Of a DNA stretch of 64,000 bases, positions 2 to 16,712 are shown piece after piece (positions within the stretch are counted from its first letter, which is position 1; the number at the start of each line of letters is the position of its first letter). The notes under the pieces were generated by a model. The model did no database searches and was not told the DNA's origin. It saw nothing but the letters and a program-made list of their open reading frames with translations. Source of the DNA: Natronohydrobacter thiooxidans. GTDB taxonomy: Bacteria > Pseudomonadota > Alphaproteobacteria > Rhodobacterales > Rhodobacteraceae. Location of the stretch: the NCBI RefSeq assembly GCF_001884735.1, contig NZ_MJAP01000034.1:558001-622000 (forward strand), given 5' to 3'. The position numbers were made by a program, and so were the translations under genes.

Positions 2-1540
2 AGCCTCTTGCAGATGCTGCTCAAGACCGCGATCGGCTTTGTTGTCGCGGGTGCCGCGTTCTACGGGGTGATTGCGGCAATCGGTTTTCTGCGCGATGTC
101 GCGCCTGCGATTTCCGGGCCGGTGATCCTGATCGCGTTGCTGGGTATCTATCTTGCCTGTCTCTGGGTCGCCTCTGGCCGTCCGGAACTGGAACTCGATG
201 ACCCGAATAACAAGAAGATCGTGCTTCCGGTCATGCGCGAGGTCGTGCCCACGGGGCTGCATTTCATCCTGCCCATTGTGGTTCTGGTCTGGTTCCTGAT
301 GGTCGAGCGCCAGTCGCCCGCGAAATCGGCCTATTTCGCTGTGCTGGTGATGCTGTTCATCATCCTGACCCAACGCCCGATCAAGGCGCTGATGCGCGGC
401 GAGGGCAATATCATCGGCGAATTGCGCCGCGGCGTCGGGGATCTGGTTGACGGGATGATCACCGGCGCGCGCAACATGATCGGGATTGCAGTGGCCACTG
501 GTGCGGCAGGTGTGATCGTGGCCACTGTGACGCGCACGCCCATCGGCACCGAACTGGCGGGGCTGGTCGAGCTGCTGGCCTTCGGCAATCTTTTCCTGAT
601 GCTGCTGCTGGTGGGGCTCTTCTCGCTGGTGCTTGGTCTTGGCCTGCCCACAACGGCGAATTACATCGTGGTCTCGTCGCTGATGGCATCGGTGGTGGTC
701 AGCCTTGGTGCGCAGGAAGGGCTGCTGGTGCCGCTGATTGCCGCGCATCTATTCGTGTTCTATTTCGGGCTTATGGCCGATGTGACGCCGCCTGTGGGGC
801 TTGCGAGTTTCGCGGCCTCGGCGGTCTCGGGGGGCGATCCGATCAAGACCGGCTTTCAGGCCTTCTTCTACAGCCTGCGCACCCTCGCGCTGCCCTTCCT
901 GTTCATCTACAATCCGACACTGATCCTCTATGGCGTCGATCTTGGCACCACTGCCGGGGTGTTGCAGGCGGTGCTGATCTTCTTCATCGCCACATTCGCG
1001 ATGCTGCTTTTCGCGGCGGCGACGCAGGGCTATTTCCTCGCGCGCTCGAAACTCCACGAATCCGTGGCGCTGCTGCTGGTGGCTTTCACGCTCTTTGTGC
1101 CGAATTTCTGGCTTGACCGTATCCAGCCTGAATTCGAGCGCATGGCAGGCACCAGTTTCGAGGAGGTGTTGAGTGCGGCCGCGCCGGGCGACCAGTTGCG
1201 TCTGGAGATTCGGGGCCCCGATTTCGCCACGGGCCAGATGCGCAGCACCACGCTGGTGCTGGATGTGGATGACACGCCGGGGGCGCAGCGGCTGGCCGAT
1301 ACTGGGCTGTTCCTGATGCCAGAGGATGACCGGATGGTGCTGGATGAGCCGATGTTCGGCTCGCCCTTCCAGCGGGCGCTTGGCGGGTATGATTTCTATG
1401 GCCGCCAGCAGGTCGAATTGCAGTATGTCCTGCGCCCCGCTGACCGGATGCCGGAACAGTTGTTCTACATTCCGGCATTGCTACTGCTCTTCGGGGTGAT
1501 CTTGCTGCAACGTCGCCGTCAGACGCAACCGGCCTTCTGA
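2..1540 (+). CDS. TRAP transporter fused permease, C-terminal part (5' end outside window)
   Basis: The reading frame is open from the first bases, so the N-terminal part lies upstream of the window. The visible 512 residues hold many hydrophobic helices and the DctM-type permease signature region (GLGLPTTANYI and the stretch FGLMADVTPPVGLA, about residues 210-265). After about residue 370 comes a soluble segment of about 120 residues and then a final membrane helix, matching the DUF3394-type tail found on fused 4TM/12TM TRAP permeases. Such proteins use a periplasmic binding protein and an ion gradient to import carboxylates or related solutes. The substrate cannot be read from the sequence, and the binding-protein gene is presumably upstream. 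Confidence 0.88.
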   Translation, partial: SLLQMLLKTAIGFVVAGAAFYGVIAAIGFLRDVAPAISGPVILIALLGIYLACLWVASGRPELELDDPNNKKIVLPVMREVVPTGLHFILPIVVLVWFLMVERQSPAKSAYFAVLVMLFIILTQRPIKALMRGEGNIIGELRRGVGDLVDGMITGARNMIGIAVATGAAGVIVATVTRTPIGTELAGLVELLAFGNLFLMLLLVGLFSLVLGLGLPTTANYIVVSSLMASVVVSLGAQEGLLVPLIAAHLFVFYFGLMADVTPPVGLASFAASAVSGGDPIKTGFQAFFYSLRTLALPFLFIYNPTLILYGVDLGTTAGVLQAVLIFFIATFAMLLFAAATQGYFLARSKLHESVALLLVAFTLFVPNFWLDRIQPEFERMAGTSFEEVLSAAAPGDQLRLEIRGPDFATGQMRSTTLVLDVDDTPGAQRLADTGLFLMPEDDRMVLDEPMFGSPFQRALGGYDFYGRQQVELQYVLRPADRMPEQLFYIPALLLLFGVILLQRRRQTQPAF

Positions 1541-10930: not shown

Positions 10931-11497
10931 TTAGACGTAGAGCGCAGGCTCGGACCCGGCTGACGCGGCCGCTGACAGGATGTCGAACATATATTGCGCG
11001 ACCGAGCGGAAGCAGATCAGATCCACCTCTTCCGGCCCGGTGACAAGGATGGCTGCCGCCACCTGTGCCGCGCGCGTGCGGCGGATATCGCCTGTGCCAA
11101 GCGTGCTGAAATCGACCGGGCAGAGTTTGGCCAGCGCGTCGCGCCATGCGGTGCCGGACAGGCTGAACACGGCGCGGGCGTCCGAGACATTGGCGACGGT
11201 CGCGAATTCCCCCGCGAGTGCCGCGCGCAGCGCCGCTTCCATGCCAGGGGCCTGATCATGCGGGCAGAGGATCAGGAGCTCATCGGGCGACATCCAGACG
11301 ACCGCGTTCTCGCCCGCCTGCACGATCCGGCGCATGGGCGGCAGGGCGGCGCCTGTGATCTCCTGCACGGCTTTGGCGATCGCTGCCGAGGCCAGATCGC
11401 CGCGCAGGGTGATCATCCCGCGCAATCCGGCCTCTGTCACGCGCACGAAGCCTTCGGATTGCGCAGCGGGCAAGGCACTTACACTGATTTCAGACAT
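10931..11497 (-). CDS. soxG: Sarcosine oxidase gamma subunit
   Basis: Smallest-but-one subunit of heterotetrameric sarcosine oxidase; 188 residues, the usual length. The segments SDARAVFSLSGTAWRDALAKLCPVD (about 105-130) and RTRAAQVAAAILVTGPEEVDLICFRSVAQYMFDIL near the C terminus are characteristic of SoxG and related aminomethyltransferase-like folds. The ATG at 11497 is chosen because it overlaps the soxA 3' end by 8 bases, as expected for coupled genes; the open frame runs further upstream through soxA. SoxG helps hold the complex together; no catalytic residues are known for it. Confidence 0.9.
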   Translation of the reverse strand: MSEISVSALPAAQSEGFVRVTEAGLRGMITLRGDLASAAIAKAVQEITGAALPPMRRIVQAGENAVVWMSPDELLILCPHDQAPGMEAALRAALAGEFATVANVSDARAVFSLSGTAWRDALAKLCPVDFSTLGTGDIRRTRAAQVAAAILVTGPEEVDLICFRSVAQYMFDILSAAASAGSEPALYV

Positions 11498-14492
11498 TCT
11501 GCTTTGCCCCTTCCTTGTCATAAAACACCGGGTCCACGATCCGCGCCTTGATGCGCGTCTCGCCCTGACCCGCGAAGCTGATTTCCTCGCCCATCCGGTC
11601 GGTTCCGCGTTCCACGAGCCCCATTGCAATCCCGCGCCCCAGCGTGGCCGAGTAATAGGTCGAGGTCACGCGCCCCTCGGTGCGGGCCTGTTTGTTGGCG
11701 TTCAGCCCCGGCACCACAGCCAGCGCAGCATGCGGCAGGACCGAGCCATCCAGCGTTTCCAGCCCCACGAGTTTCCAGCGTTTGGGGTCGATCATGGCTT
11801 CGCGTTCCATGCCGCGCTTGCCAAGGAAATCGTCCTTCTTCTTGCTGATCGCCCAGTTCAGGTTCAGATCCTGCGGGATCACCGTGCCATCGGTTTCATC
11901 GCCGATCATGATGAAGCCCTTTTCGGCGCGCAGGATATGCAGCGCCTCGGTCCCGTAGGGCATGATGCCCATATCCGCCCCCTCGGCCATCAGCCGTTCC
12001 CAGAAAGCGCGGCCCTGCGAGGCGGGCACGGCAATCTCGAAGCTGAGTTCGCCCGAGAAGCTGATCCGGAACACCCGCGCGTCAAAGCCGCCGAGCCTGC
12101 CCTCGGCCCATTCCATGAAGGGCAGGGTGTCGCGCGACAGATCCATGCCGCCCAAACGTTCCAGCAACTGGCGTGCTTTCGGGCCGACCACGGCGATCTG
12201 GGCGAACTGCTCGGTCAGATTGACGGTATGGACTTTCCAGTCCCACCATTCGCATTGCAGCCAGTCTTCCATCCAGGCATGGATGCGATCCGCGCCGCCC
12301 GAGGTGGTGTGGACAAGGAAAGACTGCGCGTCGATCCGCGCGACAACCCCGTCATCCATCAGGAAGCCGTTTTCATTGCACATCAGGCCGTAGCGGCATT
12401 TGCCGGGTTTCAGCGTGCTCATCATATTGGTGTAGAGCATGTCGAGGAAACGCCCGGCATCCGGCCCCGAGACAAGGATCTTGCCCAGCGTCGAGGCGTC
12501 GAGCAGCGCCACATTCTCGCGCGCGTTCTTCACCTCGCGATTCACCGCGTCGTGGCGTTTCTCGCCTGCGCGCAGATAGGTATAGGGTCTGCGCCATTGG
12601 CCGACCGGTTCCCAATCCGCGCCATTGGCGTCATGCCAGTCATGGATGGGCGATTTGCGCAGCGGCTGGAAGGTGGAACCGCGCGCCTCGCCCGCGATGG
12701 CGCCGATGGAGATCGGCGTATAGGGCGGGCGGAAGGTGGTGGTGCCGGTGGCCGGGATCGGTTGACCCAATGCATCAGAAAGCACCGCCAGACCGTTGAT
12801 ATTGCTCAGTTTGCCCTGATCGGTCGCCATGCCGAGCGTGGTATAGCGCTTGGTGTGTTCGACCGATTGATAGCCTTCGCGTGCCGCAAGCTGCACATCC
12901 GAGACTTTCACATCATTCTGGAAATCGAGCCACATTTTCATGCGCAGATCATAGTCCGCCGCGCGGGGCATGATCCAGACGGGTTCCAGCGGGGCCTCAT
13001 CGGGCAGGCTGTCGGTCGCGGGCGCGTCGGTTGCGGTCAGGCCGGCGGCGCTCTGGCCTGCGGCATGGGCACCGGCCAGCACGGCGCCAAGATCGCCATG
13101 GGCAGAGCCGCAGGTCAGCACGAAGCCCGCGCCATCCGCGCCGAGCGGCGGGCGTGCAGGGTCAGGGCGGAAGAAATGGCCGGTCTCGTCCCAGGTCAGT
13201 TTGCCGCCGCAATGCGACCACAGATGCACGACCGGCGACCAGCCGCCGGACATGGCGATGGCGTCGCAATCGAGCGCTTCGCTCTGGGTCTTGCCATCGC
13301 TGTCGATCGGGCAGAGTTCGACGCCGGTGACGCGCTTGCCGCCCTTGACCTTGCGCACGCCCTGACCGGTCAGCACCCGGATGCCCAGCGCGCGGGCCTG
13401 TCCGGGCAGCGCGCCATTGGCCTCGCTGCGCGCGTCAATCACGGCAGCGACCTTGATCCCGGCTTCATGCGCGGTGATCGCGCTGCGATAGGCGTCGTCA
13501 TTATTGGTGACGACCACGATGACCTTGCCGGGGCTGACAGCGTAATTCACGATATAGTCGCGCATGGCCGATGCCAGCATCACGCCCGGCACATCATTTC
13601 CGGCGAAAGACAGCGGGCGTTCGATCGCGCCGGTGGCGGTGATGATCTTGCCCGCGCGCATCCGCCATAGCCGGTGGCGCGGCGCATCGGTGCGGGGGGC
13701 GTGATCGGTGATCCGCTCATAGCCCAGAACATAGCCGTGATCATGCACGCCCGCGCCCATGCAGCGGGTGCGGATCTGGACATTCGGCAGGCTTTCAAGG
13801 GTTTGCAGTGTGGATTTGATCCAGTCATCGGCGGGTTTGCCGTCGATCTCGACCCCATCGACCGGGGCGCGGCCGCCCCAATGCGCGGTCTGTTCCCAGA
13901 GCACCACTTTCGCCCCCGCCTGCGCGGCAGAGAGCGCGGCCTGCAGCCCGGCGATGCCGCCGCCGATCACCAGCACATCGCAGAAGCCATAGATCTGCTC
14001 ATAGCGGTCAGTGTCGCGCGCATTTGTGGCCGGGGCTCTGCCCAGACCTGCTGAGCGGCGGATGATCGGCTCGTAGACATGTTTCCAGAAGGCGCGCGGG
14101 CGCAGGAAGGTCTTGTAATAGAAGCCCGCTGTCAGGAATTGCGGCACCAGATTATTGACCGCGAGGACGTCGAAATCGAGCGAGGGCCAGTGGTTCTGGC
14201 TGGCTGCGGTCAGCCCGTCGAACAATTCGGTCGTGGTGGCGCGCTGGTTCGGCTCGAACCGGTCGCCGGTGCCAAGCTCCATCAGCGCATTCGGCTCTTC
14301 CGCGCCCGAGGCGACAACCCCGCGCGGGCGGTGGTATTTGAAGGAGCGGCCGAGCAGTATCTGGTCATTGGCCAGGAGCGCTGCGGCCAGCGTGTCGCCT
14401 GCAAAACCGCTCATGGATTTGCCGTTGAAGGTGAAGTTCCGGGGCGTGCCGCGCGCGATCAGGCGGCCGCCATTCGGCAGACGGTGGCTCAT
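11490..14492 (-). CDS. soxA: Sarcosine oxidase alpha subunit
   Basis: Large subunit (1000 residues) of heterotetrameric sarcosine oxidase, which converts sarcosine, tetrahydrofolate and O2 to glycine, methylene-THF and H2O2. The N terminus resembles the 2Fe-2S/ferredoxin-like fold of this family (LIARGTPRNFTFNGKSMSGFAGDTLAAAL). The NAD-binding Rossmann motif DVLVIGGGIAGLQAALSAAQAGAKVVLWEQ (about 175) follows. From about 590 comes the folate-binding aminomethyltransferase-like half (LLDASTLGKILVSGPDAGRFLD...) with a GCV_T C-terminal barrel. ATG 14492 gives a four-base ATGA overlap with soxD and the family N terminus MSHRLPNGGRLI. Confidence 0.96.
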   Translation of the reverse strand: MSHRLPNGGRLIARGTPRNFTFNGKSMSGFAGDTLAAALLANDQILLGRSFKYHRPRGVVASGAEEPNALMELGTGDRFEPNQRATTTELFDGLTAASQNHWPSLDFDVLAVNNLVPQFLTAGFYYKTFLRPRAFWKHVYEPIIRRSAGLGRAPATNARDTDRYEQIYGFCDVLVIGGGIAGLQAALSAAQAGAKVVLWEQTAHWGGRAPVDGVEIDGKPADDWIKSTLQTLESLPNVQIRTRCMGAGVHDHGYVLGYERITDHAPRTDAPRHRLWRMRAGKIITATGAIERPLSFAGNDVPGVMLASAMRDYIVNYAVSPGKVIVVVTNNDDAYRSAITAHEAGIKVAAVIDARSEANGALPGQARALGIRVLTGQGVRKVKGGKRVTGVELCPIDSDGKTQSEALDCDAIAMSGGWSPVVHLWSHCGGKLTWDETGHFFRPDPARPPLGADGAGFVLTCGSAHGDLGAVLAGAHAAGQSAAGLTATDAPATDSLPDEAPLEPVWIMPRAADYDLRMKMWLDFQNDVKVSDVQLAAREGYQSVEHTKRYTTLGMATDQGKLSNINGLAVLSDALGQPIPATGTTTFRPPYTPISIGAIAGEARGSTFQPLRKSPIHDWHDANGADWEPVGQWRRPYTYLRAGEKRHDAVNREVKNARENVALLDASTLGKILVSGPDAGRFLDMLYTNMMSTLKPGKCRYGLMCNENGFLMDDGVVARIDAQSFLVHTTSGGADRIHAWMEDWLQCEWWDWKVHTVNLTEQFAQIAVVGPKARQLLERLGGMDLSRDTLPFMEWAEGRLGGFDARVFRISFSGELSFEIAVPASQGRAFWERLMAEGADMGIMPYGTEALHILRAEKGFIMIGDETDGTVIPQDLNLNWAISKKKDDFLGKRGMEREAMIDPKRWKLVGLETLDGSVLPHAALAVVPGLNANKQARTEGRVTSTYYSATLGRGIAMGLVERGTDRMGEEISFAGQGETRIKARIVDPVFYDKEGAKQNV

Positions 14493-14812
14493 ACGAAGCC
14501 CTCCCATTCCGGGCGTTTCGACTTGATGGCGGTGATGACATCGGCGGGCGGCTCCAGCGTCTGGGCCGGATAGGTCGCGAACACCTCCAGCGTCATGGTG
14601 CAGCGCGCGGCGAGAAACCACTTGCCGCAGCCATAGACATGGCGCCAGCGCTCGAAATGCACCCCGCGCGGGTTCTTGCGGCTGAACATGTAGGATTCGT
14701 AATCCGCGTCATCCGAGCCGGGGCCGAAGCGCTTGAGATGCGCCTCGCCACCACCATGGAATTCGGTTTCTTCGGCAGTCACGCCGCAGCAGGGACAGGT
14801 GAGGATCAGCAT
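14489..14812 (-). CDS. soxD: Sarcosine oxidase delta subunit
   Basis: 107-residue zinc-binding subunit of sarcosine oxidase. It begins MLILTCPCCG, with the cysteines of the zinc site, followed by EETEFHGGGEAHLKRFGP and RKNPRGVHFERWRHVYGCGKWF, all highly typical of SoxD. The ATG at 14812 lies inside the last codons of the inserted HEPN-like gene, so the two overlap by 7 bases. A GGAG about nine bases upstream, which would serve as the soxD ribosome-binding site, is therefore contained in the inserted gene's coding sequence. Confidence 0.95.
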   Translation of the reverse strand: MLILTCPCCGVTAEETEFHGGGEAHLKRFGPGSDDADYESYMFSRKNPRGVHFERWRHVYGCGKWFLAARCTMTLEVFATYPAQTLEPPADVITAIKSKRPEWEGFV

Positions 14813-15465
14813 TGCGATAGCTCCAACTCGAAGCAATGGTTTAGTTGGCGGAGGTAGCGAATAAAGCAGCCAAAGCTTTCATCTACGAAATTGCGGCCGA
14901 TGAACAATGTCGTTGCCGCCCCCGTGCTGTTGTCTAAAGCCACCCTTCCGGTGTTTCTTTCGATCACTTTCTCAATTTTGGCTAGAGAGCTGTTGTCTAA
15001 GAAGCCATGATTGTGAGCTATGACGTTTCGGATCGTTCGGTAATCGAGTACCTTCTCCCATTCTTGCCCAGATACTGGCAGACGAGTACTTGTAAGCTTG
15101 CTGATGATCTTAATCTTCTCGACCCCTTGCCCGCTCAAGTCTCGCAACCCGAGGCCGAACCCCTTTTCGACCAAGAAATGGCGACACATCTCTAGTGCGC
15201 CGAATTCAAAAAGCGAATAGGTAGACAGCAGTATGCTGCCAATAAACGCTTGGGTGACTTGAGAATCTTCTTCAGCTTTTAGATGGTGCAATAACTCTTC
15301 GAGTTCTTTCACGTCATCATCAGAATAGTTCTCTGAAAGCTCAGCAGACGACGAGGTGAAATAGTCATCGTTCATGATTGCATCGAAAGACCGATCAAAG
15401 ATGCGTTTGAACTGATGAAACCTGTTTTCTGCATCCCAGAGATCAAAGCGTGTTTGCTGGTTCAT
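14806..15465 (-). CDS. HEPN-like protein inserted in the sarcosine oxidase operon
   Basis: A 219-residue protein, not a sarcosine oxidase subunit. It is alpha-helical by composition, with an acidic N-terminal third (ENYSDDDVKELEELLHHLKAEEDS), a hydrophobic helix ILLSTYSLFEFGALEMCRHFLVE cut here as ILLSTYSLFEFG at about 78-89, and the motif R146-N-V-I-A-H151 in YRTIRNVIAHNHG. The Rx4H motif in such a helix is the hallmark of HEPN domains, many of which are RNA-cleaving toxins or defence effectors. Local GC is about 45%, against about 65% around it. Its ATG overlaps the soxB stop by one base (TGATG) and its stop overlaps soxD. No antitoxin-like neighbour is visible. The HEPN assignment is inferred from the motif alone. 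Confidence 0.72.
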   Translation of the reverse strand: MNQQTRFDLWDAENRFHQFKRIFDRSFDAIMNDDYFTSSSAELSENYSDDDVKELEELLHHLKAEEDSQVTQAFIGSILLSTYSLFEFGALEMCRHFLVEKGFGLGLRDLSGQGVEKIKIISKLTSTRLPVSGQEWEKVLDYRTIRNVIAHNHGFLDNSSLAKIEKVIERNTGRVALDNSTGAATTLFIGRNFVDESFGCFIRYLRQLNHCFELELSQC

Positions 15466-16712
15466 CAATGCGCCACCCCCGCCGCCACGCTTTCGTCGAT
15501 GAAACGCCCCTCGCGGAAGCGGGACATCGAGAATTCTTCGGCCAGCGGCCCCGGTTCGCCCTTGGCGATCAGCTCTGCCATCGCCCAGCCTGAGCCCGGA
15601 ATCGACTTGAACCCGCCGGTGCCCCAGCCGCAATTAATGAAACAGTTGCCCAGCGGCGTTTTCGAGATGATCGGCGAGCGGTCGCCGGTCATGTCGACGA
15701 TCCCGCCCCATTGGCGCAGCATCTTGAGGCGCGAGATCATCGGGAAGGTCTCGACCAGCGCGCGCACGGTTTCCTCGATATGATGCCAGGATCCGCGCTG
15801 GGTGTAGTTGTTGAACTGGTCCGCGCCGCCGCCGATGACCATTTCGCCCTTGTCGGATTGCGACATATAGCCATGCACGGTGTTGGCCATGACGACGACA
15901 TCCATGCAGGGTTTGATCGGCTCCGACACCAGCGCCTGCAGCGCCACCGATTCGACCGGCAGCCGGAAGCCCGCCATATCCGCGAGCGCCCCGGAATGGC
16001 CCGCGACGACGATCCCGAGTTTCTTGCAGCTGATCGTCCCCTTGGTCGTGTTGACCGCAGTGACCTGCCCGCCTGCGGATTCGACACCCGTCACCGCGCA
16101 TTGCTCGATCACATGCATGCCCATGTCGGAACAGGCCCGCGCATAGCCCCAGGCGACCGCATCATGGCGCGCGGTGCCGCCGCGCGGCTGCCAGAGCGCG
16201 CCAAGGACCGGATAGCGCGGCCCGTCGATATTGATGATCGGCACCAGTTTCTTCACTTCGGCGGGCTGGATGAAGCGCGTCTCCACCCCTTGCAGCGCAT
16301 TGGCGCGCTCGGTGCGCAGATAGCCGCGCTTTTCGTGTTCGGTCTGGGCCAGCATCATCACGCCGCGCGGGCTGAACATGATATTGTAGTTCAGATCCTG
16401 CGAGAGCGTCTCATAGAGGCTGCGCGCTTTCTCGTAGATCGCCGCAGAGGGATCCTGCAGATAGTTCGAGCGGATGATGGTCGTGTTGCGCCCGGTATTG
16501 CCGCCGCCCAGCCAGCCCTTTTCGATGATCGCGACATTGGTGATGCCATAGCGCTTGCCCAGATAATACGCCGTGGCCAGCCCGTGCCCGCCTGCGCCCA
16601 CGATCACCACGTCATAAGCGGCGCGCGGCTCGGGGCTGCTCCAGGCCTCGTCCCAGCCCTTGTGCTGGCGGAAGGCTTCGCGCGCGATGGCAAAGGCGGA
16701 ATAGCGTTTCAT
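15465..16712 (-). CDS. soxB: Sarcosine oxidase beta subunit
   Basis: 415-residue flavoprotein subunit carrying the site of sarcosine oxidation. A DAO-type FAD-binding motif YDVVIVGAGGHGLATAYYLG lies at about residues 33-52. HisArg-type flavin attachment and substrate-pocket segments such as GNTGRNTTIIRSNYLQ follow, and the C-terminal NCGWGTGGFKSIPGSGWAMAELIA is the usual FAD-contact region. The N terminus MKRYSAFAIAREAF is typical of SoxB. It is the first gene of the operon soxB-insert-soxD-soxA-soxG. The operon promoter would be in 16713-16942, which it shares with divergent ccmI. Confidence 0.96.
   Translation of the reverse strand: MKRYSAFAIAREAFRQHKGWDEAWSSPEPRAAYDVVIVGAGGHGLATAYYLGKRYGITNVAIIEKGWLGGGNTGRNTTIIRSNYLQDPSAAIYEKARSLYETLSQDLNYNIMFSPRGVMMLAQTEHEKRGYLRTERANALQGVETRFIQPAEVKKLVPIINIDGPRYPVLGALWQPRGGTARHDAVAWGYARACSDMGMHVIEQCAVTGVESAGGQVTAVNTTKGTISCKKLGIVVAGHSGALADMAGFRLPVESVALQALVSEPIKPCMDVVVMANTVHGYMSQSDKGEMVIGGGADQFNNYTQRGSWHHIEETVRALVETFPMISRLKMLRQWGGIVDMTGDRSPIISKTPLGNCFINCGWGTGGFKSIPGSGWAMAELIAKGEPGPLAEEFSMSRFREGRFIDESVAAGVAH

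Follow-up and report, generated by a model that had tools for sequence, protein, structure and literature searches.

A candidate translational bridge between soxB and soxD in Rhodobacteraceae, with a HEPN-like gene as a rare passenger

The sarcosine oxidase operon of Natronohydrobacter thiooxidans contains, between soxB and soxD, an AT-rich open reading frame (ORF) that encodes a HEPN-like protein and overlaps both of its neighbours. How can a gene of foreign appearance come to lie in a catabolic operon without any visible break in it, and is this fit a property of the gene or of the place where it was found? The analysis presented here covers a window of 64,000 nucleotides (nt) of contig NZ_MJAP01000034.1 and the corresponding loci of related genomes. 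All coordinates are positions in the window, and the whole operon lies on the minus strand.

The ORF between soxB and soxD and its protein

A first-pass annotation of the window had described the ORF at 14806..15465, and this description was borne out in its details. The ORF is encoded on the minus strand, which had not been given, starts with ATG and specifies 219 amino acids (aa), with the sequence RNVIAH at residues 146-151 of the translation (codons at 15013..15030). Its G+C content is 46.8% (about 45% in the annotation), against 64.3% for the window, 64.1% for soxB and 63.2% for soxD, and its GC3 is 55%. The junctions are also as reported. The soxB stop codon TGA (15465-15467) and the ATG of the ORF share one base in TGATG (15463..15467), and the TGA of the ORF lies inside the soxD start ATGCTGA (14806..14812), an overlap of seven bases. 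The likely soxD Shine-Dalgarno sequence, GGAG (14821..14824), is located 8 bases 5' of the soxD ATG, within the final codons of the ORF. The gene order soxB-soxD-soxA-soxG was recovered by profiles: soxB, beta subunit of 415 aa (15465..16712; TIGR01373, 626 bits, cut-off 529); soxD, delta subunit (14489..14812; PF04267, 95 bits, cut-off 27); soxA, alpha subunit (11490..14492; TIGR01372, 1285 bits, cut-off 1164); and soxG, gamma subunit (10931..11497; PF04268, 59.5 bits, cut-off 21). Both soxD and soxG pass the Pfam cut-offs and fall below the NCBIfam ones (TIGR01374, 87 bits, cut-off 116.5, and TIGR01375, respectively). As soxA overlaps soxD by four bases (ATGA) and soxG overlaps soxA by eight, the operon is a chain of overlaps: the stop/start distances are -1 and -7 at the two ends of the spacer and then -4 and -8 to soxA and soxG, all of them within -8 to +10 nt. 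The ORF goes beyond chance, with invariant residues common to six relatives (17-25% identity) and a junction geometry that is repeated across the family.

The Rx4-6H motif is the catalytic signature of the HEPN superfamily. The window protein has no match in Pfam or NCBIfam even at E 5, and its matches in PHROGs (two, at 0.007 and at 0.22, the latter annotated as abortive infection resistance protein) and PADLOC give no confident family in any of the four collections. Searching solved structures with its sequence and by profile yielded nothing relevant, including no HEPN structure for the profile of the seven related proteins against the PDB, and a single-sequence structure model, composed of helices only, was too poor to use (mean pLDDT 40.3). 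No relative was found in the phage records and viral contigs searched. Three plasmid records do carry one, from Priestia (26%, 2e-5), Halomonas (24%, 1e-4) and Legionella sainthelensi (24%, 8e-3); the Halomonas copy, used as query, matched 82 plasmid records including its own. A further three relatives came from 299 genomes of the phylum, one of them beside an HNH-like gene and one beside a transposase-like gene, both named from translations. In an alignment of seven proteins (window, L002, Priestia, Halomonas and L177-L179), E87, L107, R146, H151 and G154 are invariant. RiboL-PSP-HEPN was matched by two of the seven (best 1.7e-5, 25.3 bits, below the cut-off of 28.4), Swt1-like HEPN by one (0.0042) and pEK499 p136 HEPN by one (0.036). 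RTasHEPN of PADLOC, against which four proteins were scanned, was matched by L178 (3.6e-7), L177 (2.1e-5) and the window protein (0.0066). The L002 homologue matched no HEPN model, and neither the window protein nor its relatives reached a curated cut-off of a HEPN profile. The motif together with the relatives' matches supports the assignment of the protein as HEPN-like, and the alignment places its gene in a sparse family with invariant E87, R146, H151 and G154. Judging from Rx4H and the weak profile matches of the relatives, the protein's own action is probably RNA cleavage or a defence-type role. An adjacent nucleotidyltransferase antitoxin, as in HEPN-MNT pairs, is absent; the immediate neighbours are soxB and soxD.

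The gene is rare. It was found in one of 37 genomes of the genus and in two of 394 genomes of the family, the own genome being included in both counts, and the family figure was obtained with the protein as query and also with a four-row profile. The second carrier (G350) belongs to another genus and its protein is 25% identical; in that genome the gene again occupies the whole soxB-soxD spacer and has TGATG and ATGCTGA at its junctions, so that both family carriers have it in this slot. The ORF is single-copy in its genome, and a search of plasmid records gave no soxD at 1e-20. Among the matches listed, the closest named soxD sequences include Natronohydrobacter, Roseibaca and Roseinatronobacter. 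The spacers of 16 other loci of the genus are 316 to 1045 nt long, none of them having the window's 652 nt, and many same-genus spacers hold a small membrane-protein gene (for example L010, L014 and L027). A search of the window's genome with one member of this small gene family gave nothing convincing (best E 0.6), and the HEPN-like gene therefore appears to stand in its place.

Openness and phase of the spacer frame across the family

Loci were sampled as the closest soxD matches among 370 positive genomes of the family, 140 regions being taken from part of the best matches listed. The first set of 171 loci was reduced to 156 by dropping five without soxB on the contig and ten with soxB identity below 70%, which are paralogous or outgroup operons. 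A second, named set had 80 loci, five of them unusable; of the other 75, 20 were identical to first-set spacers, leaving 55, and one more was dropped when the sets were pooled. The pool thus holds 156 + 54 = 210 distinct loci, with 161 spacers of at least 150 nt (long spacers). Frames were numbered from soxB, frame -1 being the one that starts on the soxB stop codon. In the window this is the frame of the HEPN-like ORF, which occupies the entire spacer.

Spacer length ranges from 10 to 2648 nt in the 210 loci and the contents are mostly unrelated, while TGATG is present in 136 of them. Frame -1 runs without a stop across the full spacer in 109 of the 161 long spacers, against 0 and 2 for the other two frames. 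For spacers of at least 1 kb the count is 23/42 (other frames 0 and 1), and for the long spacers of the second set alone 34/44 (0 and 1). The longest open spacer, L190 of Pararhodobacter zhoushanensis, has 1852 nt. The 68 first-set open spacers without recognised cargo contain 12374 frame -1 codons and no stop, where 333 are expected from their own base composition, and their other two frames have 320 and 252 stops; as these 68 were chosen as open, it is the unconditional open-frame counts that serve as the test. The phase is equally regular. All 109 open spacers are 1 mod 3 in length; their frame terminates at soxD +7, the place seen in the window, in 88 loci, at +13 in 19 and at +1 in two. 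The 52 closed spacers have lengths of 0 mod 3 (29), 2 mod 3 (18) and 1 mod 3 (5); in 13 of them a frame -1 ORF extends from soxB to within 45 nt of soxD, and others are relays of ORFs. As a result that would count against its reading, the first-pass annotation had named a gene of native base composition shared at this position by most relatives. This does not hold for the HEPN-like gene, but an open frame at the locus is indeed found in most of the sampled relatives.

According to the cited text of PMC10666635, reinitiation drops almost completely at a distance of about 20 nt, coupling needs an overlap or a very short distance, and gene pairs at -8 to +10 are enriched for subunits of complexes. 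When each ORF was required to start -10 to +6 nt from the preceding stop, a single bridging ORF or a relay was identified in 149 of the 161 long spacers, made of one ORF (121), two (23), three (2) or four (3); L233 of Cereibacter changlensis JA139 is an example of a spacer crossed by a single open ORF, and L187 of Roseibaca ekhonensis of a relay in three steps. Under the same search, ten dinucleotide shuffles gave 13-34, the reverse complement 40, a one-base rotation 18 and a mid-gap frameshift 33. Imposing the published distance of -8 to +10 at every junction left 124/161 (20 shuffles, 14-28), and allowing -13 at the last junction gave 150/161 (shuffles, 20-37). Deletion of one, two or three bases at mid-gap changed the relay count to 84, 48 and 149, respectively. 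The relay junctions are mostly overlaps of -1, -4, -7 or -8, with single cases of 0, +3 and +4. Spacers without a relay number 12 of 161 in the main search, 11 in the loosest test and 37 in the strictest. In most loci the frame that begins at the soxB stop can be followed open to the soxD start, as one ORF or as two to four touching or overlapping ORFs. A Shine-Dalgarno-like 4-mer is found 5' of soxD in 146 of the 161 long-spacer loci, with a background of 7-12 at control places, which makes an independent start of soxD possible too.

Control gaps were taken from the window and from 20 genomes of the family, sampled as 20 stretches of 20 kb, with genes predicted by a simple, rough caller (350 genes). 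Of the 60 co-directional gaps obtained (150-2700 nt), three had a relay to the predicted start, including the window's own sox gap, and four had one to any start within 60 nt. The three frames, taken singly, were open throughout in 7, 8 and 11 of these gaps. The control gap lengths are themselves skewed, with 30/60 at 2 mod 3, for which we offer no explanation. Two other co-directional gaps have ORF relays, in L263 near 13743 and in L275 near 16325 (556 and 293 nt); these may be chance or further bridged junctions.

Two simple accounts of the spacer were rejected. The frame and shuffle tests speak against decayed or ordinary intergenic DNA, and the family survey against a one-off insertion.

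Contents of the slot and what its frame encodes

What occupies the slot varies widely: it may be a small membrane-protein gene in either orientation, a foreign gene that is AT-rich, or sequence without a recognised gene. Nineteen of the 161 spacers are at least 10 G+C points below soxB, the window's spacer being the seventh lowest. A membrane family marked by a WG(F/Y)GD-like motif at the C terminus, named from translation and often AT-rich, occurs at 11 loci (for example L115, L063 and L172); its L115 member has no Pfam match at E 0.1 and an NCBIfam match far below the cut-off. Other recurrent cargo comprises a family of 230-246 aa (four loci) and, named from translation with no profile match, glycosyltransferase-like proteins (three loci) and a TfoX-like family (four loci). 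Trypco2 is a domain type known from predicted conflict systems, and a Trypco2-like pair is present in spacers L137 and L126, with PF19631 at E 0.0015, below the cut-off, for L137 and no match for L126. None of ten spacer proteins compared with Pfam reached a curated cut-off. The small membrane-protein genes belong to several families, for example in L097, L067 and L156 (minus strand) and in L024 and L025 (plus strand). They are under purifying selection in the compared pairs and mostly keep one phase relative to soxB (24/30, 21/22 and 17/18 members in three clusters).

Some spacers also contain pieces of the flanking genes. Remnants of a soxD start and a second soxB end, fused, lie inside the spacers of L028, L047 and L094; the L028 remnant, at 322..475 after the soxB stop, forms part of a three-step relay. 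A soxB-end remnant is found in the L070 spacer and a soxD-start remnant in that of L060. The remnants give the impression that cassettes bordered by ends of soxB and soxD were joined on one after another, and they suggest recombination through the flanking genes as the cargo's route of entry.

Of 22 alignable pairs among the 161 spacers, 11 independent pairs with at least 70% identity were used to measure divergence; in two of the 11 the spacer frame stops three bases short of soxD. Outside the small genes, the substitution rates at the three codon positions of the bridge frame are 0.209/0.211/0.185, with no sign of protein-level selection. The corresponding values are 0.067/0.258/0.090 inside plus-strand small genes and 0.306/0.028/0.056 inside minus-strand ones. 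Because the rates peak at the third positions of the small genes themselves (0.258 and 0.306 versus 0.03-0.09), these genes are real, in another frame or on the other strand. A multiple of three was seen in 20 of 26 indels, and all 11 pairs have a net length difference of 0 mod 3. Across 66 plus-strand small genes of open loci, the bridge frame has no stop in 5842 codons, where 179 are predicted from the soxB rate, a rough yardstick, given that for the third frame of plus-strand small genes it predicts 90 stops and 140 are seen. For 24 minus-strand small genes, 6.2 stops are predicted and none is found. In the 68 open loci without recognised cargo, the frame's base composition does not show the usual coding periodicity. 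The flat codon-position divergence makes it unlikely that every locus hides a protein gene in its bridge frame. In the comparable pairs, the frame carries no amino-acid constraint outside embedded genes, while stops and out-of-phase lengths are excluded from it.

A bridge model, its rivals and known systems

We consider it likely that the spacer is a sequence-independent translational bridge, by which soxD is coupled to soxB, and that foreign ORFs, the HEPN-like gene among them, have been captured in it. Ribosomes finishing soxB would re-initiate at once, traverse the spacer and be handed over to soxD by termination-reinitiation, so that SoxB, SoxD, SoxA and SoxG would be made in step. Foreign DNA would persist in the slot mainly when open and in phase, and a captured gene would for this reason look seamlessly inserted. 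The HEPN-like ORF would then be a horizontally acquired gene in a variable slot, one passenger where relatives of the genus have a small membrane-protein gene, and its protein would be made whenever the sox operon is translated. In a more general form, which we hold to be probable, the junction is selected only for continuous translatability: any DNA, coding or not and in either orientation, would be tolerated provided that an open path reaches the next start. Such a junction would act as a filter and a trap for foreign ORFs (HEPN-like, Trypco2-like, membrane-protein), which would arrive seamless and already expressed.

Polarity is known to result from long untranslated spacers, and an open frame would protect the RNA. 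Translation of the spacer might serve only to prevent Rho-dependent termination of the soxBDAG transcript, with no re-initiation at soxD needed. Shielding of this kind does not require the bridge to end near the soxD start, yet it does so within a few bases and in the right phase in 109/109 open loci, and the relay junctions are mostly overlaps of -1, -4, -7 or -8. Embedded plus-strand genes, moreover, would provide shielding by their own translation, and still the bridge frame is open across them as well (0 stops against 179 expected). We regard shielding alone as unlikely. A different possibility, favoured by the first-pass annotation, is that a HEPN ribonuclease or defence gene was captured for its own sake under catabolic control, its seamless junction being a one-off. 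Much of that reading stands: the gene is AT-rich, sporadic and HEPN-like, Rx4H is invariant in its relatives, no antitoxin is an immediate neighbour, both carriers among the 394 family genomes have it in this slot, and AT-rich cargo recurs there (19/161 spacers). What does not stand is seamlessness as a peculiarity of this gene, since the same junction type frames unrelated content in most of the sampled relatives, even DNA without protein-level constraint; capture for its own sake is quite unlikely as the full explanation.

The long frame might also be a real, very fast-evolving orphan protein of the operon, present in every genome, with the window copy as one version of it. A long ORF with start and stop at conserved places does occur in most loci, and in some, the window included, it encodes a recognisable protein. 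We judge this very improbable, however, given the flat codon-position rates of the 11 pairs outside the small genes, the missing periodicity in 68 loci, and contents that for the most part cannot be aligned and that often run antisense to conserved small genes or in a different frame from them.

The lasting finding, on the bridge reading and at the level of sequence, is a family-wide translational bridge in which the HEPN-like gene is a rare passenger; translation of the bridge and its effect on SoxD are what we infer from it. If true, selection would act to keep a frame open and in phase for hundreds of codons, independently of the encoded protein, and termination-reinitiation coupling would be extended from abutting genes to genes more than 1 kb apart. 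It would also account for the entry of foreign genes into housekeeping operons that stay intact, and it warns against taking every long ORF with a fixed position in an operon for a protein gene. The 161 long natural spacers lend themselves to testing coupling over distance. Among the literature matches listed there was no report of a soxB-soxD bridge, of HEPN with sarcosine oxidase or of insertions into coupled genes.

Several known systems resemble parts of this locus. The window protein shares Rx4H, sporadic occurrence and relatives on plasmids with the RiboL-PSP, pEK499 p136 and RTasHEPN types of HEPN, but unlike them it has no Pfam HEPN match, no partner gene beside it and a place in a metabolic operon. 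In TGATG/ATGA termination-reinitiation pairs, as far as described in the cited text of PMC6728339 and PMC10666635, the same stop/start overlaps, with distances of -1 and -4, join genes for subunits of one complex. In the sox operon, in contrast, the coupled genes are not adjacent, and the coupling would span up to about 1.9 kb by way of an unconserved frame. Short upstream ORFs from which ribosomes pass on to a coupled gene (PMC12548453, in the portion cited) are similar in that translation matters and not the product, as would be the case in the sox bridge; they are short and precede one gene, whereas the sox frame links two genes over hundreds of codons. A related principle is that of the Mycobacterial interspersed repetitive units (MIRUs), in which, according to PMC12548453, the inserted DNA brings an ORF that is coupled to the gene after it; an ORF overlapping both neighbours would restore coupling across an insertion. 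MIRUs are short repeats at many places, while the sox spacer is one place that holds unrelated DNA up to whole foreign genes, and no MIRU-like repeat was found in it, the ORF being single-copy in its genome and only the 22 pairs among the 161 spacers being alignable. By analogy, the sox spacer looks like the MIRU coupling principle without a conserved element.
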